Shown: in pieces, positions 6,665 to 49,405 of the stretch
How the letters are laid out: each line of letters opens with the position of its first letter
Numbering within the stretch: the stretch's first letter is position 1
DNA from: Pedobacter sp. FW305-3-2-15-E-R2A2
Lineage (GTDB): Bacteria > Bacteroidota > Bacteroidia > Sphingobacteriales > Sphingobacteriaceae
DNA length: 64,000 bases
NCBI RefSeq assembly: GCF_038446955.1
Contig: NZ_CP151803.1
Coordinates: 496,001 to 560,000 of the forward strand
Direction: 5' to 3'
Made by a program: the position numbers and the translations under genes
Notes under the pieces: generated by a model
The model's input: only the letters and a program-made list of their open reading frames with translations
Told to the model about the DNA's origin: nothing
Database searches by the model: none

Positions 6665-7219
6665 ATCCACCAAAACCCTGAATTACATTTAGTTTCAGAT
6701 ATTGTTTGAAATTTAGGATTTATTCTTTAATATTGGTTTAGTAAAACGTATTAGTTCGAGCCTGATGCTTTACCGAAATTATTAGCTAACCTAAATATAA
6801 CCAAATATGAATGTCTTTACTATTTCTAATAGAATACCCTTAGCGAAATTATAAAACGTATTAGCCTTTAGTTTTCAGCAATTTATAGCCTTTTATCTTC
6901 AAAGGAGTGCCGACGTATGGGCAATCCAATTCAACCGGCATTTCTGGAATTAATCGCATACCTGACTCCAAACTCTTTTTTTGGAGGAATTGATAAAACG
7001 TATTACTATTTGCCAAATAATCAACCCGAGTATTCACCCCTAACGCAAAGCCCATGAATAAATAAGCCAACTCAACATTGATATTAAATTATTAAAACGG
7101 TTTAGTATCATTCAATACCAATCCCTGCTTCGGCATCCGCCATCATGAACCATTGATGTTGAAGCAGCAGGCATTCCCAAATGCCCAACCCATAATTTAC
7201 TAACCTAAAAACAACAAAA
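6665..7219. other. 555-bp intergenic region upstream of susC 1
   Basis: No convincing gene. A minus-strand frame of 69 codons (6861-7070) exists but has no recognisable motif or leader. A 15-codon plus-strand frame starts at 6807 behind a susC-like A-rich leader (CTAACCTAAATATAACCAAA) and may be the relic of a leader. The region holds four LacI-operator-like repeats, listed separately. No full TTTG-N19-TAnnTTTG promoter was found by eye. Confidence 0.6.
6742..7105. promoter_or_regulatory. four LacI-operator-like repeats upstream of susC 1
   Basis: The sequence TAAAACGTATTAG occurs at 6742-6754 and 6852-6864. TAAAACGTATTA occurs at 6994-7005 and TAAAACGGTTTAG at 7093-7105. All are imperfect palindromes around a central CG, the layout of LacI/GalR-family operators. 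Spacings are 110, 142 and 99 bp. No LacI-family gene lies in the window, so the regulator would be encoded elsewhere. The assignment rests on the motif shape only. Confidence 0.45.
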
Positions 7220-10200
7220 ATGAAAATTAAACACTTAGTTCTGGCAGGACTTCCTATGTTCTGCCTAACGGGAATTGGATCCTTTGCTGCGATGGCAGCG
7301 GGAAGCAGTTCCGGTGCCAATTCACATGCTTCTTTTTTCTTTCAGGGGGTATCACAAAAAATAACCATCAGCGGAATAGTGCTGGATGAAAAGTCTCAGC
7401 CTGTCCCGGGTGTGGGAATTAAAGCCTTAAAAACAAATAAATCAACCGTAACAGATGCTTCAGGCCGTTTCAGCATTGAAGTAGAAAGTGCTGCGGAGCA
7501 ACTATCTTTCAGTTATATCGGTTATACAACACAGACCCGTGCTGCGGGATCTGGTGCAACACCTTTGAGCATCAAACTGGTGCCTGCTGAAGGTGTAAAC
7601 CTGGACGACGTGGTCGTGGTAGGTTACGGAACAAGAAGGAAATCTGATGTTACCGGTGCAGTAGGATCTGTAAAAGAAGAACAACTGAAGGAACGCCCTG
7701 CAGCTTCTTTAAACCAGGCCTTGTCCGGACGTATTTCAGGAGTACAGGTGAATTCAAATTCTGGTCGCCCGGGTGGTCAGACCAATATCAGGATCCGTGG
7801 TTTCAGTTCCATCAAAACCACCAATAACCCATTGTACGTTATCGATGGTGTTATTCTTCCGGTAGGTTCACAAACACAGAACAGCAATGCGATAGACTTT
7901 TTAAACCCAGGGGATATTGCCTCTGTAGAAGTGCTTAAAGATGCTTCTTCGGTTGCGATCTATGGAGCAAGGGGTGCAAATGGGGTTATTTTAGTAACCA
8001 CCAAAAAAGGGTCTACGACGGGTGGTAAAATCAGTTATGATGTTGATTTTAGTGTGCCGACCATTGGACCAAAAAGAGTAGAAATGCTCAATGCCAAAGA
8101 ATTTATCGAAGTAGAAAACCTGGCTTTCGAAAATTCCAAAATCTACGATCCTGAAGGCTTTGCCGCAGGAAAATATGTCGACCCAAGAATTAAAAGAAAA
8201 ACCCTGCCGCTGCTTTTTGATTCCAATGGCAATCCTTTGTACGATACGGATTGGTTTAAAGAAGCAACACAGAACAAACTTTCCCAAAATCATCAGCTTG
8301 GATTTACAGGCGGTAATGCGGAGAACAGTTATGGTTTGTTCTTGAATTACCGCGATGACAATGGTTTGTTAAAAAACTCTTACCTGAAACGCTACTCGGG
8401 AAGATTTACAATGGATAGCCAGATCAAGAAATGGATGAAAGTGGGTGGAAGCTTAAACTATACCAATCAATCAGAAAACCTGGTGGATATAGGCACAGGA
8501 GGATTAAACTCTGTAAGGATGATCACGGAAAGTTTCCCTTTTTTACCGGTTAAATATCCTAATGGATCCTGGGCAGATAATCAGAATTATCCAGGCGCTG
8601 AAGGAGGATCCAATCCGGTTCATATCCTGACAGACCGTAAATATATCTTGCAAACACAAAATACACTTGGAAATGCTTATGCCAATATTAACCTCGCCGA
8701 GGGATTGGAATTCCGCAGTGTTCTTGGGGCAAATATTGTGACCAGAGGTCGTTCAGAATACAACGGACGTGGTTTGTATGGCATCTCTTTTGATCAGAAA
8801 GGAAGTGTTACTTTAGACAATAACAGGGAAACTTATTGGTCTTTTGAAAATTACCTGACCTATAACAAGCGTTTTGCCAAGGACCATGCGATCACCGCAT
8901 TGTTGGGCTTGTCATGGCAGGAAACCAATATTTTTGGCTTCGCAGTAGGCGGGGAAAATTTTTCAACGGACTACCTGTTGTATAACAATTTGGGAGCGGC
9001 GAGTAAGCCGATTCCGGGAAGTTCCAGAGCGGATCGTTTTGCGTTTAACTCTTACTTCGGACGTTTAAATTATAGCTTTAAAGATAAATATCTGTTTACA
9101 GCAACCGGACGTATGGACGGTTCTTCCAAATTCGGATCAAACAATAAATATGCGTTTTTCCCTTCAGGAGCAGTGGCATGGAAAGTTTCCGAAGAAGAGT
9201 TTCTTAAAGGGAGTCCGGTGGTGTCTAACCTGAAACTTCGTGCCAGTTACGGTTTAACCGGGAATTCTGAAATACCGAGCTTTTCTTCACTAGGAGTTTT
9301 AGGAACCGGATATGCGGCGATTTTCAACAATACAAGATTTGCCGGCGTGGGAACGAACAGACTCGGGAATCCTGATCTCAAATGGGAGAAAACAGGTCAA
9401 TCTGATATTGGTGTAGAATTGGGATTGTTTAACAATAGGATAAACATCGAGGCGGATGTATACTACCGTAAAACTACCGATATGTTATTGGATGCACCAG
9501 TGCCATTGACCAGCGGATATGGTACTATTACGAGGAATATCGGGAGCATGGTAAATAAAGGACTGGAGTTTGCCATCAATACGGTGAACATCCGTACGGA
9601 GAACTTTACCTGGAATACCATGTTCAATATTTCCATGAACAGAAATAAAGTGCTTTCACTGGCGACTCCGGCAGACATTTTTGGCGTAGGAAACCCTGGT
9701 TTTACAAATGAAACCGGAATTATCCGCGTTGGCGAACCAGTAGGCTCTTTCTGGGGATTAACCCGTCTTGGAACATGGAGTGAAAGCGAACGTGCCGAAG
9801 CAGCAAAATACAACTACAGAGGAAAAACGATATTACCAGGCGATGTTAAATATTTGGACGTAAATGGCGATTATCAGATCAATGATGCCGATCGTATGAT
9901 CATCGGAAATGGTAGCCCAAAAGCCTGGGGATCATTTTCCAATACCTTTAAATACAAAAATGTAGACCTGACCGTAGAGCTTCAGTATTCTGCGGGTAAT
10001 GATGTGCTCAATATGACGAAGCACTCTGCCGAAGATCGTGTTGGACTGGCCAATAGCTACAGTTCTGTGTTAAATGCCTGGACGCCTCAAAATCAGAATA
10101 CACCGATCGCAGCAATCCGTGATACCAGAGCCGGATATGTGACAAACGTGGATACCCGTTGGGTAGAGGACGGATCTTTCATTCGCGGCAGAAACCTTTT

Positions 10201-41973: not shown

Positions 41974-43074
41974 TCATTTGAGTTTTAATTGCTGTTGTAC
42001 AAAACGTACTTTGTCTTTTTCAAGAGGATTAATTTTTACATCAGGAGGAATTCCAATGTTGTCAATTGGATTTTCTGGTAAGCGCTTAGATCTGGAAATG
42101 GCGATAGCCAGGCTATAGTCGTCGCAGGGGATGTCAAAGTACTGGGTATTTGCATAATCCAGTGAACCGCCTGAGTTTTCTCCAAACAGCGTCACTTTCT
42201 TACTTTGTTTTGCAATGAGCAGAAAGGATTCTGCCGAACTCAAGGTTTCCCTGCTGATCAGGATCCCTATTTTCTTGGGGTAGGTATAGCTGCTGTCTAA
42301 TGTGTTGCTAAAGGTATCCTTCCCTAAAGGATTTATAAACTGCCCCGGATGTTTCTTCATCAAAGAGATGATGGCCTTCAGGAAGTTCCCCTGAGGGGAG
42401 ATCGGATTTAGACCTTTTAAGTTCTTTTCCAGAATGGCGATATTGTCTTCGGAAGACCAGTATTCATCGGGCTTTCCAATATAAGCCTGTGTATACAAAT
42501 AAGGAATCAGCGATTGAAAGGTGTAATCTGTTCCGCCTCCGTTTCCACGGATGTCTATGATCCAGTTAGGCGTTTTTTTCAATAATGCCTGCTGACTTTT
42601 GAGTAAACTGTCAATCATCTTTTTTTCTGACCATTCAAAAGAAGGAAGTCTCAGCAATAGCGTCTGTTCGTCAAGTTGTTGAATTTCCGTTTGTCCACTT
42701 AGCTGCTCTGAAACGATTTCTTTCTTCTGTGAAAAATAGGCGTTAATCTCCTTCGTCTGCGCTGGATTCGCCTTTTTATAATCTCCGTTAAGCTGAACTT
42801 TTAAATGCTGATCCTGGAAATAGTTTGTCCAGGTTTTTAACACAATAAAACAAGCATCTGTTGTCTTTATAGCCGATGCTTTTTCCCTTAATTCCTTCGT
42901 GAAAAGTGTAAACTTCTCCTTGTTTCCTGCGTTAATCTTATCCCGATATCCTGAATAATTTCTGCTCACCTTTGAAGTCATATAGTCAAAGTTGACCCGG
43001 CAGTTACAGTCTTGTGCAAATAGTTTTAATGAGTTGGTTAACAAAAAGATAAGGAGGAGATTTTTCATGGACAT
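41974..43074 (-). CDS. S41 family (C-terminal processing-type) peptidase, secreted
   Basis: A 366-residue exported serine protease of family S41 (tail-specific protease group). The signal peptide is MSMKNLLLIFLLTNSLKLFAQ; the start could be either of two ATGs two codons apart. Motifs: IIDIRGNGGG (about residue 175), the nucleophile in ETLSSAESFLL (about 282) and LFGENSGGSLDYANTQYFDIP, the last being the general-base loop region of the family. There is no PDZ domain, so it belongs to the short subgroup. The exact substrate is unknown. It is divergent from the glutaminyl cyclase gene, with 96 bp between the starts. Confidence 0.92.
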   Translation of the reverse strand: MSMKNLLLIFLLTNSLKLFAQDCNCRVNFDYMTSKVSRNYSGYRDKINAGNKEKFTLFTKELREKASAIKTTDACFIVLKTWTNYFQDQHLKVQLNGDYKKANPAQTKEINAYFSQKKEIVSEQLSGQTEIQQLDEQTLLLRLPSFEWSEKKMIDSLLKSQQALLKKTPNWIIDIRGNGGGTDYTFQSLIPYLYTQAYIGKPDEYWSSEDNIAILEKNLKGLNPISPQGNFLKAIISLMKKHPGQFINPLGKDTFSNTLDSSYTYPKKIGILISRETLSSAESFLLIAKQSKKVTLFGENSGGSLDYANTQYFDIPCDDYSLAIAISRSKRLPENPIDNIGIPPDVKINPLEKDKVRFVQQQLKLK

Positions 43075-43170: not shown

Positions 43171-43992
43171 ATGAAAAGAAAAATTATTTGCCCGATTCTT
43201 CTATTACTGGGTTTGCAAAGCTGCCAAAACGGTAATCATGCGGAGAAAACTACTGTTGTAGTGCAGGCGCTTTCGACTCCTGTACTCAGTTATTATGTAA
43301 CAAACAATTTCCCGCATGATACCACGCTGTTTATTGAGGGTTTTTTATTTTATCAGGGAAAATTGTTTGAAAGTACGGGCTCTCCGCTCGACATGACCAG
43401 TACGCGTTCTTTAATCGGTATTCAGGATCTAAAAACAGGTAAGCTTGATATTAAGGTAGAGCTGGACCGGTCAAAATACTTTGGAGAGGGGATTGTGATC
43501 CTGAAAAATAAACTCTATCAACTCAGTTATAAAAATCAGCTTGGATTCGTATATGATGCGAGCACCTTTAAAAAACTCGCTGAGTTTAAGTATGCGAATG
43601 CGGAAGGCTGGGGGCTCACAACAGACAGTGTTTCCTTAATCATGAGTGATGGTACGGATAAATTAACTTTTCTTGATCCCGAAAAATTATCGCCGGTCAA
43701 GACAATTTCCGTGACTGAAAACGGGCTTCCTTTGGATAAGTTGAATGAACTGGAATTTATTAAAGGATTTATTTACGCCAATGTTTGGGGAACCAATGAT
43801 ATCGTTAAAATTGATCCGGCTACGGCCAAAGTGGTAGGTAAACTGGATTTTAACGCTTTGGCACTGACGGAGAAAAACAATAATCCTGGCGCTTTAGAAA
43901 TGAATGGGATTGCCTACGACCCCGATAATGATAAGATATACATTACCGGGAAGCTGTGGGCCAATATTTACCAGATTGAACTTAATAAATAG
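43171..43992 (+). CDS. glutaminyl-peptide cyclotransferase, lipoprotein
   Basis: A 273-residue lipoprotein (lipobox LGLQSC, then QNGNHAEK) of the plant/bacterial-type five-bladed propeller cyclotransferases. Recognisable segments: FIEGFLFYQGKLFESTGSP, RSLIGIQDLKTGK, EFKYANAEGWGLTTD, LNELEFIKGFIYANVWGTNDIVKIDP and ALEMNGIAYDPDNDKIYITGKLW. It converts N-terminal glutamine of exported proteins or peptides to pyroglutamate, in the periplasm or at the outer membrane. A bidirectional terminator follows. Nothing in its neighbourhood names a specific target. Confidence 0.9.
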   Translation: MKRKIICPILLLLGLQSCQNGNHAEKTTVVVQALSTPVLSYYVTNNFPHDTTLFIEGFLFYQGKLFESTGSPLDMTSTRSLIGIQDLKTGKLDIKVELDRSKYFGEGIVILKNKLYQLSYKNQLGFVYDASTFKKLAEFKYANAEGWGLTTDSVSLIMSDGTDKLTFLDPEKLSPVKTISVTENGLPLDKLNELEFIKGFIYANVWGTNDIVKIDPATAKVVGKLDFNALALTEKNNNPGALEMNGIAYDPDNDKIYITGKLWANIYQIELNK

Positions 43993-44044
43993 CCACCTAT
44001 TCTATGATGTTCTTGATGAATTGAAGATCCTGAAGAAATAAATA

Positions 44045-44072
44045 GAAAAAGCGCTTAACTAAGCGCTTTTTC
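44045..44072. terminator. bidirectional terminator after the cyclotransferase and TPR-like genes
   Basis: A perfect 12-bp stem GAAAAAGCGCTT (44045-44056) with AAGCGCTTTTTC (44061-44072), loop AACT, with built-in A- and T-runs. It overlaps the stop codon of the minus-strand gene ending at 44055. Confidence 0.85.
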
Positions 44073-45128
44073 TATTTGAAGGGAAAAGTTTGAGTTCTTG
44101 TTGCGTTCGTCAAACTCGACCGCATATTGCTGAGCCTCTTTGTAATAATGGTTGTACAAATCCTTTACTTTATAAGAGTTTGTGCTGGTATATAGCGGAT
44201 GTTCATGTGGCAATTCTATGCTGACTTCCTTCTCCTGATCTTCCTGTTTTAAGGCTTCTGCCATATTCAGGGAGAAAAAGAAACGGCGGCTTGTTTTGGT
44301 AGAGTCTGCCCATGGAAGGTACTTCTCTATATAATGCCAGCCTTTATCTTTATCGGTATGGAACAAATACACGATCAATGCGCCGATGGAAGTGATCAGC
44401 GAACTGTCGTCTTCCACTTCCTGTAATCCTTCTTCTGCCTGATGGAACAATTCTGCCGCCTTTTCTAATTCATTGTTTCTGATGGCCATATAGCACAATT
44501 GACAGAACGTAATTACCGGTACATGGGCACAGGTAAACTGTTTTTGAAGCAAGGGGAGGGCTTTGGTGTAGGCCTTCCCAAAATCACCCTCATTGATGAG
44601 GTAGGTAACCTCTGTATCCATCTCACAGGCGTTACAGTCGCTCAATTCATCCCTGGGTACTGCATTGACCAGGTCAAGAAAAGTAGTGCTTTTGGCAGCA
44701 TCCTGCTGATACAGGGCTTCGTTCAGTTGTTTGGAATAATAAGAGCGAATGCCCAGGCCTTTTTCTTCCAGTCTGCGCTTATAATCTTCAAGAACGAGCT
44801 CGATTTGTTCCAGTGGAACATCCGGATTGGAATACAACTCATTAATGATCCATTTGTATTTCCAAAGCAGATCTTCTATCTCGTAGTTTTCAGGATCGGC
44901 ATCATAGGCGTTTAACATCCAGCTGAAAAGGCTGACAAATTCTGTTCTGTCAGACAGTCCCCATTCTTTATCCATTAAGTCCGACCTTAGTTCATATCCC
45001 AACTCTACATCTTCGTTCGCATCGGCAATCTGGATCGCCTGAACCAATAGTTTTCCTGCATCCTTTGGGTGAATGTTTTCCTGGTTTGCACGGTTTAATA
45101 ATTTCTGTACTTCTAATGTATACCTCAT
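44055..45128 (-). CDS. TPR-like helical protein, third gene of the Hsp90-like operon
   Basis: A 357-residue soluble protein predicted to be almost entirely alpha-helical, with TPR-like spacing (LLVQAIQIADANEDVELGYELRSDLMD; ELEKAAELFHQAEEGLQEVEDD). I do not recognise a named family. Cysteine pairs CNAC (about 165-170) and CAHVPVITFCQLC (about 205-217) could bind a metal, or may be structural. There is no signal peptide. It lies 7 bp after the Hsp90-like gene, so the two are co-expressed, and a direct co-chaperone role is the obvious hypothesis. It ends in a terminator hairpin. Confidence 0.8.
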   Translation of the reverse strand: MRYTLEVQKLLNRANQENIHPKDAGKLLVQAIQIADANEDVELGYELRSDLMDKEWGLSDRTEFVSLFSWMLNAYDADPENYEIEDLLWKYKWIINELYSNPDVPLEQIELVLEDYKRRLEEKGLGIRSYYSKQLNEALYQQDAAKSTTFLDLVNAVPRDELSDCNACEMDTEVTYLINEGDFGKAYTKALPLLQKQFTCAHVPVITFCQLCYMAIRNNELEKAAELFHQAEEGLQEVEDDSSLITSIGALIVYLFHTDKDKGWHYIEKYLPWADSTKTSRRFFFSLNMAEALKQEDQEKEVSIELPHEHPLYTSTNSYKVKDLYNHYYKEAQQYAVEFDERNKNSNFSLQIEKALS

Positions 45129-45135
45129 GGTGTAA

Positions 45136-46917
45136 TTAAATGTTAATAAAATGCTCCATTCCCATAATGATCAGGCTATGGAGTGCCTCGTTAAATAAAT
45201 TCATTTCTGTATCACTTACAGGATACTTTCCCAGTAATAAGGATTGCACGTATAAAATATGAACAATGGAAGGAAAAACATAAGGGTCTTTAATTCCAAT
45301 CATACTTTTGACCAGTTTATTGTCTGCATTGAAACACAATACCGGCTGTATGGCTTTCTTTTTGGGTGCAAAGGCGCTAAGCGTTGCGGTGAGCGGATTG
45401 CTCGGAGAGACTGGTTGTTTTGCATTGATCTCGTCCTGAGGGGCAACATATATCGCCGGGGTGTCTTCAGGACTAAAAATCTTCAGGCTACAGCTGCAGT
45501 TTAATTTTTTTAAGACTTCAGTCGCCCGGATTTCAAAATCAGCCAGTGCAGGGTCCAGGGAAGTGTCGATTGCGTGGAAGCTGTTTAATAAGCTGCCCGG
45601 AGAGATCTGTTCGATCTTGAGACTGCTATCCAGACGTTGAATTTTTTTCAGCAGCTCCTCTTCAAAAGTGTAAGCTGCATTGATGATCAGGGTTCCCTGA
45701 GCACCGGCAATGCGGCGGACCTGTTTGAAATCGTCAATATTTGGGGTGTAGAAAATGGTATGCTCCAATTCTCTGATGTTTCTAAAGGACCGGATTCCTT
45801 TGTTTGTTTCAAATGGAAGGTCATCGATAAAGACCTGTAGAAGCTCATTGTCTTCCGCTGCAATTGCTTTGAGGTGAAGGTAATGGGTGCTGATCAGTTT
45901 CTGATAAATGTTGTGGTTAATCAGACCGATAGATTTAAGGTACGCCTTAATGGTGGTTCCGATTTCTTTTTTCGCTCCTTTTAGAGCGTCATTGTAAACC
46001 AGTGCTTCTCTGGAGGCGATGGCATCCAGTCCGTCTGCATTGAGGATACAACGAATAAAAAATGCCCATTTTGGAAGTAACCGGCAATCATCATCGCTCA
46101 GAAACATCCGTTTTAAAAATAGTTTATGGGTTTGTTTTCCACTAAATTGTGTTTTATAAGGAAGGATATAGGCCACTCCCTTAACTCCGCCATCTGAAGT
46201 TGAAATCGGGAAGGCATCTAAAAATCCGGTATTAAAGGCTTTTCTGCCAATGGCAAGCAGCTCTTCCTTCGTGGTCGCGGATTCCAGCCAAAGAGCCCCG
46301 GCTTCATTTATCCAATGGATAGTTTCTTCGTAATGAAGGTAAATCGGCATGGGCAAAGCCTCTCCGTAATATTCAAGGTTTTTGCGGAACACATCAGCCT
46401 TGAACAGGTACTTAAATTCATCTTTAGGATAAAGGATCACCTTTGATCCAATGGGACGTTCCTCTTCTATAGGGCTAATGTGGTAGGTGCCATCAGACTT
46501 TCCGGTCCACCTTACGGCAGTCTCGCTCAGCGCTGATCTGGATTCCACAATGATCTCATTGCTCACTACAAAGCAGGAGAGCAGGCCAATACCAAATTTG
46601 CCAATATAGTCTTTGGCTTCAAAAGCTTCGCGTTTGGAGCTCTCCCCGATAACGGCCAAAAATTTATGAATCTCATCTTCTTTAAGTCCGATGCCATTGT
46701 CTTCAAAGATCAGTTCAGCCCGCTTGCTATCCGGCAGGTGAATTCTGATGCAGCCTTCATGGTGTTCATCCATGGTTCGTAAAGCGGTGATGGCATCGAC
46801 CCCATTCTGAAGAAGTTCTCTTACGAACGTGTTCGGATTGCTATACAAATGTTCAGATAAAAGGGAGATCATCCCTTTTAGGTTGACCTGAAACAAGTAT
46901 TGCTGATTTTCATCCAT
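45136..46917 (-). CDS. divergent Hsp90-family ATPase (HtpG-like)
   Basis: A 593-residue member of the Hsp90/GHKL family. The N-terminal ATPase has RELLQNGVDAI (catalytic-type E34, N38, D41), DNGIGL (73-78) and the lid GKFGIGLLSCF (106-116). The middle domain keeps LPKWAFFIRCILNADGLDAIASREALV, corresponding to the SRE arginine region of HtpG. The C-terminal dimerisation part is short and divergent, so total length is about 30 residues below normal HtpG. It is clearly a paralogue rather than the housekeeping chaperone. The gene starts one base after the stop of the 828-residue Sel1-repeat gene, and a TPR-like gene follows 7 bp later. Confidence 0.9.
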   Translation of the reverse strand: MDENQQYLFQVNLKGMISLLSEHLYSNPNTFVRELLQNGVDAITALRTMDEHHEGCIRIHLPDSKRAELIFEDNGIGLKEDEIHKFLAVIGESSKREAFEAKDYIGKFGIGLLSCFVVSNEIIVESRSALSETAVRWTGKSDGTYHISPIEEERPIGSKVILYPKDEFKYLFKADVFRKNLEYYGEALPMPIYLHYEETIHWINEAGALWLESATTKEELLAIGRKAFNTGFLDAFPISTSDGGVKGVAYILPYKTQFSGKQTHKLFLKRMFLSDDDCRLLPKWAFFIRCILNADGLDAIASREALVYNDALKGAKKEIGTTIKAYLKSIGLINHNIYQKLISTHYLHLKAIAAEDNELLQVFIDDLPFETNKGIRSFRNIRELEHTIFYTPNIDDFKQVRRIAGAQGTLIINAAYTFEEELLKKIQRLDSSLKIEQISPGSLLNSFHAIDTSLDPALADFEIRATEVLKKLNCSCSLKIFSPEDTPAIYVAPQDEINAKQPVSPSNPLTATLSAFAPKKKAIQPVLCFNADNKLVKSMIGIKDPYVFPSIVHILYVQSLLLGKYPVSDTEMNLFNEALHSLIIMGMEHFINI

Positions 46918-46918
46918 A

Positions 46919-49405
46919 TTATTTCCCTTTTTTTCTACCTGTTAATTTCATTGCTCTTTCATGGCCATTGTCTGCTGCTTTTTCAAACCAATACATGGCA
47001 GTATCTTCACTTTCCTCCACGCCATCTCCCATGAGGTAGCAATTGCCAAGGTCAAACTGTGCGGTAGCATGCTCTTCCGCTGCGGCTTTATTGAGCCATT
47101 CAATGCCCTGTTCCTTGTTCATGGTTACTCCTTTGCCGTTCAGCAATAAGGACCCTGCGTAGTATTGTGCGGAGGTATTGTCACTCTGTGCTGCTTCATT
47201 GAACCAGCGGAAGGCTTCTTCATGGTTTTCTTTTACGCCGATACCATTCAGGTAACAACGTCCGGTATGGTACATCGCAACAACATAATTGTTGTTCGCA
47301 GCCATCTCATAATATTTAAATGCTTCCGAATTATTGGCCTCTACGCCAATCCCGTATTCATAACATAAGCCCAGTCCTTCATGAACAATTTCTCCCTCCG
47401 ATGCTTTCTGATAATAAGCAAAAGCTTTATCAGCCTGATCAATCTGATCGTAATCATACATATAATAATCGCCGATTTCAAGCATGGCATGAGGATAACC
47501 TGCCTCAGCAGCTTTTTCAAGCCATTGAAGGGCTTTCTCTGTATCTTTTTCTATTAGACCATGCATGTAATAGTAACCAAGTTTGTAGGCACCATAATAA
47601 TAGCCCAGGTCTGCAGCCTGCTGCATATAGCCGAAAGCTTTCTCTGCATCAAATTCAACCCCATATTCATGCTCGTAACATAAACCGAGTTCTACCATTG
47701 CTTTTGCATTGCCGCCTTCTGCTGCCTGCAGGTAATACTCCAGCGCTTTGTCCGGGTTTTCTGCGATTCCGGTACCAAAGCGATAGCAGCGGCCAACTTC
47801 AAATTGACAGTTGGCATAATTCAGCGCTGCGCCTTTCAGGTAATAAGGGAAAGCAGCTTCAGGGTCCGGGTTCTGGTTATGGTAACCATTCTCGAGGTAA
47901 GTACCTGCGGTATGAATGGCAAAAGGGTAGTCGAGATCAGCAGCCTGATTAAACAGATCGAATGCTTTTTGAGAGTTCTCTTCAATGGTGCCATCCTCAT
48001 ACATGAAGCCGAGTTCAGTCATGGAATAGGTAGAATTCAGCGCTACTCCCTTTTCAAAATATTCCTGTGCTTTTTTCTGATCCGGTTCTCCAAGAATGCC
48101 ATAGCGATAGAAACGGGCTGCATTATTTATTGCTGTCGGGAAATTCAGTGTTGCCGCCTCTTCATAATGGGAAAGGGCTGCGGTAAGGTCAGGTGTATCG
48201 GTGATGACAATGCCGGTCTCATAGAGATAGCCTAGTCTGTTTAAAACATGAGGCAATTTCTTTTCCGCTGCTTTTTTTAACAGTTCTCCTCCTTCCTGTT
48301 CATTCTTTTCTGCAAGTGTGCCTTCGATCAGGATTTCAGCCTTTTCTACCATGGCGTCTAAAGACCCGTTTTTAATGGCTTCATCGAGGTAATACATGCC
48401 TTTTTTGGCGTCAAGAACCGATGGCGCATATAGGTAAAGTAATGCCAGGCGATAAGCGGAAAAATAGCTATGGTATAAACTTCCGAGTTCAAACCAATAA
48501 ATGGCCTGGGTTACGGAATCAGTATCTACATCAGTAGGAAGGGAATGATAGCCTAAGTGGTTGGCTGCTTCTATTGTTCCGCGCTCAAAAGCCCCTTTCC
48601 ACAATTCAAAAGCTGCTTCTTGTGCAGCTGGTTCTTCAGATTGAGAGAAAATGATCGATCCCAGTCTGAACATTGCGAAATCCGCTTCATCGGTGTCAAC
48701 AAGCTGTTGATAAAGGGATTTTGCAGCTTCGATCTGCTCTGTATGGTCTAAATAATTTCCTTCAAACAGCAATACATTTTTCTTCAGTAAAGGATCGTTC
48801 GTTTCTTTGAGCGCTGCAATTAAAGCCGGAATACCATCCATTTCTCCTTTGTTGATCGCAATGTAACCCCGGTATAGTTTATTCCATACCGCATCTGAAC
48901 TGTTTAGCAAACGAAGTCCGGTCTCTTCGTCTTTTTCTAAAATCACACCATAATAAAGGAGGTACCCTTTTACAGCTATTGCAAGGTCCACCTTTTTTTC
49001 AATCGCCTTATCTAAATACAAGGCGATCTTTTCTGCATCTCTGCGTGTGCCCCTTGCTTCACGATATTGAAAGGCAATTTGTGAATAGGCAACGGGAAAA
49101 TGAGTTGCCAGTTGTTCCAGGACGCTGATGACAGTATCCAGATGGAAATTATAATCGGCTTCATCCAGATATACACTTGCTTTGAAGTCAAGGCCTCCCA
49201 TAAAAAGCATTTCATAAAGCGCAAATACCTGTTGGCTATTCGCAGGAAGAAGTCCCGTGGCATGCTCCAGAAAAGCAAATGCCTGATGCCAGGTTTCCGG
49301 ATTTTTTAGGTCATCTTTTGTGAATTTTTGCAGATCCTGAAGTAGTGGAAGGTCGCTATGCTGTGCATTTTGCTGAAAAGTAGTGTAAGTGGTTTTAAGG
49401 CTCAT
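46919..49405 (-). CDS. Sel1-repeat protein, first gene of the Hsp90-like operon
   Basis: An 828-residue cytoplasmic protein. Residues 1-180 are helical and without clear repeats. From about 190 to the C-terminus there are more than a dozen Sel1-like repeats, with the pattern A-x2-LG-x2-Y-x2-G (for example YSMTELGFMYEDGTIEENSQKAFDLFNQAADLDYPFAIHTAGTYLENG and TAQFDLGNCYLMGDGVEESEDTAMYWFEKAADNGHERAM). Such solenoids act as scaffolds for protein complexes. Its stop is one base from the Hsp90-like start, so the two proteins are translationally linked. The 590-bp upstream gap presumably holds the promoter; none was identified with confidence. Confidence 0.93.
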   Translation of the reverse strand: MSLKTTYTTFQQNAQHSDLPLLQDLQKFTKDDLKNPETWHQAFAFLEHATGLLPANSQQVFALYEMLFMGGLDFKASVYLDEADYNFHLDTVISVLEQLATHFPVAYSQIAFQYREARGTRRDAEKIALYLDKAIEKKVDLAIAVKGYLLYYGVILEKDEETGLRLLNSSDAVWNKLYRGYIAINKGEMDGIPALIAALKETNDPLLKKNVLLFEGNYLDHTEQIEAAKSLYQQLVDTDEADFAMFRLGSIIFSQSEEPAAQEAAFELWKGAFERGTIEAANHLGYHSLPTDVDTDSVTQAIYWFELGSLYHSYFSAYRLALLYLYAPSVLDAKKGMYYLDEAIKNGSLDAMVEKAEILIEGTLAEKNEQEGGELLKKAAEKKLPHVLNRLGYLYETGIVITDTPDLTAALSHYEEAATLNFPTAINNAARFYRYGILGEPDQKKAQEYFEKGVALNSTYSMTELGFMYEDGTIEENSQKAFDLFNQAADLDYPFAIHTAGTYLENGYHNQNPDPEAAFPYYLKGAALNYANCQFEVGRCYRFGTGIAENPDKALEYYLQAAEGGNAKAMVELGLCYEHEYGVEFDAEKAFGYMQQAADLGYYYGAYKLGYYYMHGLIEKDTEKALQWLEKAAEAGYPHAMLEIGDYYMYDYDQIDQADKAFAYYQKASEGEIVHEGLGLCYEYGIGVEANNSEAFKYYEMAANNNYVVAMYHTGRCYLNGIGVKENHEEAFRWFNEAAQSDNTSAQYYAGSLLLNGKGVTMNKEQGIEWLNKAAAEEHATAQFDLGNCYLMGDGVEESEDTAMYWFEKAADNGHERAMKLTGRKKGK

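Follow-up and report, generated by a model that had tools for sequence, protein, structure and literature searches.

Eukaryotic Hsp90 chaperones use co-chaperones of the tetratricopeptide repeat (TPR) type, Hop/Sti1 and others, which bind to the EEVD tail at the C-terminus of the chaperone. The prokaryotic Hsp90, HtpG, is described in passages of a 2025 commentary as being without any known cochaperones (PMC12265853), and we found in the open-access literature neither a paper naming a co-chaperone of HtpG nor a description of an Hsp90/TPR-like gene pair. Here, we describe such a pair in Pedobacter sp. FW305-3-2-15-E-R2A2, within a stretch of 64,000 nucleotides (NZ_CP151803.1, positions 496,001 to 560,000; hereafter the window), in which a 593-aa Hsp90 paralogue is followed by the gene for a 357-aa TPR-like protein. 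The locus resembles the eukaryotic Hsp90-TPR teams in that an Hsp90 is paired with TPR-type proteins, here by gene pairing. It differs in that the bacterial paralogue lacks the EEVD tail and the likeness of its partner is one of fold only, at low confidence.

A second Hsp90 gene is itself no novelty. The parts of Chen et al. 2006 (PMC1525184) consulted list two HTPG copies in S. coelicolor (638 and 615 aa) and in B. fragilis (681 and 588 aa), which parallels the window's genome, where the paralogue occurs besides HtpG. They also set out three groups of HTPG, one of which may correspond to the paralogue's model, NF010683, and say nothing of a TPR-like neighbour. Because of its NF010683 match, its clade position and these second HTPG copies, we regard the 593-aa protein as a member of an already known family. 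Its constant TPR-like partner family appears to be undescribed and is the real find of the locus. The genes of the unit are as follows:

46919..49405, minus strand: Sel1-repeat protein, 828 aa (PF08238, E 6e-92), first gene of the unit
45136..46917, minus strand: Hsp90 paralogue, 593 aa (NF010683/PRK14083), made up of an N-terminal ATPase, a middle part and a C-terminal part that is divergent
44055..45128, minus strand: TPR-like partner, 357 aa, unnamed family, recognised by alignments, motif count, AlphaFold2 model and gene adjacency

The sequence-only reading of this DNA had described three minus-strand genes in the order Sel1, Hsp90-like, TPR-like, with intergenic gaps of 1 bp and then 7 bp, and the open reading frames (ORFs) of 828, 593 and 357 aa bear this out.

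Pairing of the Hsp90 paralogue with a TPR-like family

We analyzed the neighborhood of the paralogue across loci of the PRK14083 clade. In each of the 36 loci whose sequence continues past the Hsp90, the gene that follows lies on the same strand and belongs to the TPR family, at a gap of -4 to 24 bp. The 36 loci (29 from Bacteroidota and 7 others) cover three phyla, Bacteroidota, Bacillota and Actinomycetota: 11 are from the window's genus, 16 from the genus of genome G344, 2 from the genus of genome G643, 2 from Listeria, 1 from Paenibacillus and 3 from Streptomyces, and one is a gut contig. A 37th locus, from a Tannerellaceae metagenome-assembled genome (MAG; L009), ends before the next gene and stands outside the count, as do short Listeria-labelled phage contigs, two with the Hsp90 and four with the TPR gene. 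Half of the loci (18/36) had contributed no sequence to the profile by which their TPR genes were identified, namely 14 Sel1-bearing loci of G344's genus together with L090, L121, L122 and L071. Among all 28 loci of the three Bacteroidota genera besides the window's, the next same-strand downstream gene was of the TPR family in 28/28, with gaps of -1 to 24 bp. The Listeria, Paenibacillus and Streptomyces loci came from the plasmid collection (2, 1 and 3, all in the same arrangement), and the one gut contig came from records classed as phage. ATGA-type overlaps occur in the Paenibacillus locus, one Streptomyces locus and the gut contig, which suggest that the Hsp90 and TPR genes may be translationally coupled.

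The two genes also occur in the same genomes. Within the window's genus, the paralogue was present in 11 of 145 genomes (its own included) and the TPR family in the same 11. The family was absent from the remaining 134, although an HtpG-range match was obtained in every one of 35 other genomes sampled from the genus. In phylum samples of 395, the paralogue was found in two genomes (the window's own and G344), and the TPR search matched those two plus a weak third, G440 (E 5.7e-6, 26.4 bits), at whose short locus, L084, neither profile matched at E 0.1. The paralogue was further counted in 16/299 genomes of G344's genus, 1/299 of an order sample and 2/3 of G643's genus. As a control, 27 HtpG-type loci held no TPR-family gene within their short flanks; because these flanks are short, the genus-wide TPR search is the real control. 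From the TPR side, plasmid searches with three TPR queries returned 8 records, 6 of which hold the Hsp90.

The number of TPR copies per locus ranged from one to four, against a single Hsp90 seen per locus. Two to four copies were present in 12 of the 28 loci, and of the two Listeria strains one has two copies and the other one. Ten Sel1-bearing loci of G344's genus are multi-copy; in the six that were aligned, the first copy is without a C-x-x-C motif and the second has it. Locus L120 carries a single copy without the motif, and since its contig stops 32 bp past the last codon, a further copy may be missing there.

Pairwise distances of the Hsp90 and TPR proteins at 29 loci were strongly correlated (Mantel r 0.966, a value reached in 0 of 2000 permutations). 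Much of it can be put down to shared ancestry, and the correlation is no proof of contact. L059 and L121, both from G344's genus, lie far from the Sel1-bearing members of that genus in both trees, which points to two types of Hsp90/TPR pair having reached the genus. In L059, the locus of genome G344, the gene after the TPR gene (6870-7613) encodes an RlaP-type nucleotidyltransferase (RNA repair).

Sequence features of the two proteins

With NF010683 (PRK14083, 'HSP90 family protein'), for which the cut-off is 455 bits, the 593-aa protein scored 632.1, over profile positions 3-597 of 604 and residues 4-588 of 593. Its score against the HtpG model NF003555, 177.7 bits, is below the cut-off of 371, and a separate HtpG lies near position 7.13 Mb of the same genome. 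In a tree built from 14 sequences of the family, 10 HtpG proteins and one Pseudanabaena protein, a branch with 100/100 support split the family from HtpG. Two genomes used as controls, those of Deinobacterium chartae and Corynebacterium glutamicum, also gave NF010683 matches above cut-off. HtpG differs from the paralogue in clade and in giving matches in genomes of the genus that lack the TPR family, yet the two are homologous over almost their full length and have the catalytic residues in common. Aligned with HtpG by hhalign, the family profile covered window residues 10-563 of 593. The C-terminal domain, earlier taken to be divergent and short, is indeed divergent; judged by the extent of these alignments it is kept rather than missing. 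The nucleotide site and the SRE arginine, which had been read as intact in the window, were found throughout the family: E34, N38, D73, G77, G109 and R303 (the arginine of ASRE) do not vary across the 31 aligned members (31 of the 37 sequences in hand, near-copies being left out). In Hsp90s these positions are the catalytic Glu, the nucleotide-binding Asn and Asp, the glycines and the middle-domain Arg.

Residue 86 of the 593-aa protein (45136-46917), which we equate with N92 of yeast Hsp90, is F, V or L in 31/31 family members. According to passages of PMC3603443, N92L is one of two changes, derived from S. hygroscopicus HtpG, that give partial geldanamycin resistance; the S. hygroscopicus protein may belong to the NF010683-type family. 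On a Pseudanabaena plasmid (L048, 7225-10577), an 877-aa Hsp90-like protein that is sister to the family adjoins a TIR-domain gene, with a DEAD/DEAH helicase gene near, and this locus is possibly a different, defence-like Hsp90 system. Phage records with Hsp90-like matches include one from an Acinetobacter phage, whose gene is annotated htpG; among the matches listed, the Lak megaphages of Prevotella match residues 19-340 (15 Prevotella records of 33). A scan of viral_contigs with the Hsp90 alignment returned four distant, mostly larger proteins, with no TPR-family gene in the stretches around them.

The 357-aa protein matched no Pfam model above cut-off, and NCBIfam gave no match for it or for six relatives. 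AlphaFold2 predicted an all-helical repeat chain (mean predicted local distance difference test score, pLDDT, 70.9), with the C-terminal half better than the rest. Foldseek with this model returned 719 matches up to E 10, the best at E 0.024 and none at E ≤ 0.001; the 50 listed of these 719 are non-significant and largely TPR and other helical-repeat proteins, by fold classes that are in part our presumption. Among relatives, TPR_8 was marginal in Listeria (26.1 against a cut-off of 25.7), and TPR_12 was above cut-off in a Streptomyces relative, its best stretch (714-772) lying outside the shared N-terminal part. The label 'TPR-like' therefore rests on a helical model of modest confidence, non-significant Foldseek matches and weak TPR matches in relatives. 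A sequence search of the PDB with the TPR family found no close relative (best E 0.0057).

Identity to the window's protein was 60-90% within the genus and 19-26% in other phyla, and among the Sel1-bearing members of G344's genus it was 24-34% for the TPR protein versus 43-47% for the Hsp90. The Streptomyces proteins measure ~1,030-1,060 aa, with the TPR-like part as their N-terminal third. On an Actinomyces oris plasmid (L070, 6244-10961), the gene for a 1,011-aa TPR-family protein is preceded by two others, one with a YbjN domain and one that matches YbjN weakly. We aligned 45 of the 57 copies in hand besides the Priestia one, leaving out near-copies. D340 and R342 (window numbering) are identical in 45/45 copies and N343 in 44/45, giving a conserved D-x-R-N motif. 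This motif and the aromatic residues F68, W70 and W93 are candidates for an Hsp90-contact surface. A C-x-x-C motif (C165 and C168 in the window), usually with a third Cys, occurs in 35/45 copies. A set of 17 sequences had hinted that this motif was universal; the 45 copies weakened this view, with 10 lacking it, 9 of them from multi-copy loci.

The TPR-like family matched phrog_34905 (function unknown) with E 6e-39 for the window and 2e-49 for Listeria. This cluster was built from virus-labelled sequences. In the phage collection the family matched only Listeria-labelled contigs and one gut contig, which we take to be bacterial DNA, and no relative turned up when viral_contigs was scanned with the TPR alignment. 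From gene order and a 202-203 bp gap to fri, the Listeria family member is taken to be lmo0941. Published work treats lmo0941 as a hypothetical protein that shows signs of selection, and lmo0942 as a fragment next to fri; lmo0942 is also listed among heat-resistance genes.

Possible roles of the pair

The comparisons show homology to HtpG over almost the full length, retention of the tested catalytic residues, and adjacency and co-inheritance with a TPR-like family. We consider it probable (roughly 0.6) that the unit encodes a specialised Hsp90, distinct from the housekeeping HtpG, and a co-chaperone or adaptor of the TPR type dedicated to it. The pairing at every complete locus suggests that dedicated partners exist for some bacterial Hsp90s. 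The ATPase would open and close as an Hsp90 dimer, and the TPR-like protein would bind the Hsp90, its client or both, as a co-chaperone or client adaptor. The tandem TPR copies of some genomes may provide extra specificities, and the Sel1 protein, where present, could be a further scaffold or client-recruiting part. More speculatively, the Cys triad might bind metal or sense redox state; 10/45 copies are without C-x-x-C. The mode of action would be like that of eukaryotic Hsp90-TPR teams, minus the EEVD tail. We infer, as did the sequence-only reading, that the unit may be a self-contained chaperone machine. With chances a little short of even, it would be the first recognised bacterial Hsp90 with a dedicated TPR co-chaperone, a gene pair retained in three phyla whose origin was separate from that of the eukaryotic EEVD-TPR link, with the tandem TPR copies as interchangeable client adaptors and a Cys sensor or metal site in the partner.

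Several observations weigh against a co-chaperone or adaptor role. The predicted monomer model of the Hsp90 was poor (pLDDT 53.7). A C-terminal EEVD tail was found in 0/31 aligned family members (the L009 row being cut short), so any partner contact must use a surface other than the classic eukaryotic clamp. The plasmid of Actinomyces oris carries a TPR relative with no Hsp90 match in the whole plasmid record, and that of Priestia megaterium carries one with no such Hsp90 within 8 kb on the plasmid. The sister Hsp90-like gene of Pseudanabaena has no TPR-family neighbour; an annotated TPR protein is encoded two genes downstream of it. The two protein trees are only partly concordant: the Hsp90 trees join L059/L121 with L090/L122, and the TPR tree, with weak branches, does not. 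Correlated distances such as those above are expected for operon neighbours without contact. Moreover, sampling beyond Bacteroidota is thin (7 loci), and kinship of the genomes inflates the counts.

The variation in TPR copy number against a constant single Hsp90, and the faster evolution of the TPR family, would also be expected if the TPR-like proteins (and Sel1) were private clients, that is, working solenoids for regulation or sensing that the Hsp90 folds or keeps active. The relatives from Actinomyces oris and Priestia would then be self-sufficient versions. The D-x-R residues in all 45 copies and the persistence of the pair across three phyla fit a conserved interface as well, and we rank the co-chaperone or adaptor role as most likely and the private-client role, itself unlikely, next. 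Shared regulation, in which the proteins serve the same response without contact, is more doubtful again. Operons often group genes that are functionally but not physically linked, and contact between the two proteins is our inference. However, adjacency within 24 bp in 36/36 loci and co-occurrence in the same 11/145 genomes, at a TPR identity of 19-26% between phyla, are stronger than such loose links usually are.

The patchy distribution of the pair (11/145, 16/299 and 2/395 genomes) and the variable tandem TPR copies are likewise features of a conceivable anti-phage or inter-bacterial conflict module, in which a GHKL ATPase and variable TPR sensors would detect an invader. In addition, the ATPase domain matched PADLOC defence models TmtA (best E 2e-13), and in Listeria an SMI1/KNR4 (SUKH) gene follows the TPR genes. 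However, the PADLOC matches span only residues 6-130, the shared ATPase fold, and Pfam showed no effector domain in any of the three proteins. The surroundings look fixed and ordinary: RbfA and FtsX-type permease genes lie upstream in L117 (Pfam), genes of similar size occupy these places in the remaining 13 Sel1 bearers of G344's genus, and ferritin and HesB-type genes adjoin the Listeria unit. We therefore consider a conflict module the least probable of these explanations, and very improbable. If the co-chaperone or adaptor role is true, this conserved and genetically linked pair would be a compact system in which to test how Hsp90s come to recruit TPR partners, and why. Genes annotated hypothetical, among them the Listeria gene taken as lmo0941, would then gain a function.

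The Sel1-repeat gene and the surroundings of the unit

The 828-aa protein matched PF08238 with 299.3 bits against a cut-off of 30.7, in 11 stretches. In the host genome, a single contig of 7.6 Mb, only two ORFs had Sel1 matches at E ≤ 0.001, this one and one of 865 aa, located at G000:C1:2358205-2358615 (L124). A Sel1 gene lay directly upstream of the Hsp90 in 22 of the 35 loci tested (the gut contig being outside the test): 8/11 in the window's genus, 14/16 in G344's genus, 0/2 in G643's genus and, within 8 kb, 0/6 among plasmid loci. Inspection of homologous neighborhoods thus upheld the TPR-like half of the partnership first proposed for this locus (36/36, three phyla) and not Sel1 as a general rule. 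A universal Sel1 partner was ruled out by these counts, with no Sel1 gene in three members of the same genus or, within 8 kb, in the six Bacillota and Actinomycetota plasmid loci. In the Hsp90 tree, 16 Sel1 bearers fall within one supported group of 19 rows that also holds three Pedobacter-type rows without Sel1, which appear to have lost it. As far as these trees and neighborhoods reach, Sel1 is an accessory gene of one Bacteroidota lineage.

The Tannerellaceae MAG locus L009 also has a Sel1 gene (67-1946), split in two frames of 475 and 82 aa, perhaps by a frameshift or an assembly error. In L061 (8490-8999), L062 and L063, loci of the window's genus without Sel1, a 169-aa gene lies upstream of the Hsp90 instead; the L061 protein had no Pfam or NCBIfam match.

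A terminator had been placed at the operon end, and a hairpin of terminator type was located there. The region holds 7 terminator-like sites, which is close to the number in shuffles (mean 5.7), but the other six have 5-6 pairs each. Beyond the hairpin lie two genes. We place them outside the unit on account of that position and, for the glutamine cyclotransferase gene, of its opposite strand:

44040..44077, minus strand: terminator-like hairpin (17 pairs, T tail weak) that overlaps the 357-aa gene at its end
43171-43992, opposite strand: glutamine cyclotransferase
41974-43074: S41 peptidase

The named relatives at the window locus are Pedobacter (up to 98% identity) and the one Tannerellaceae MAG.

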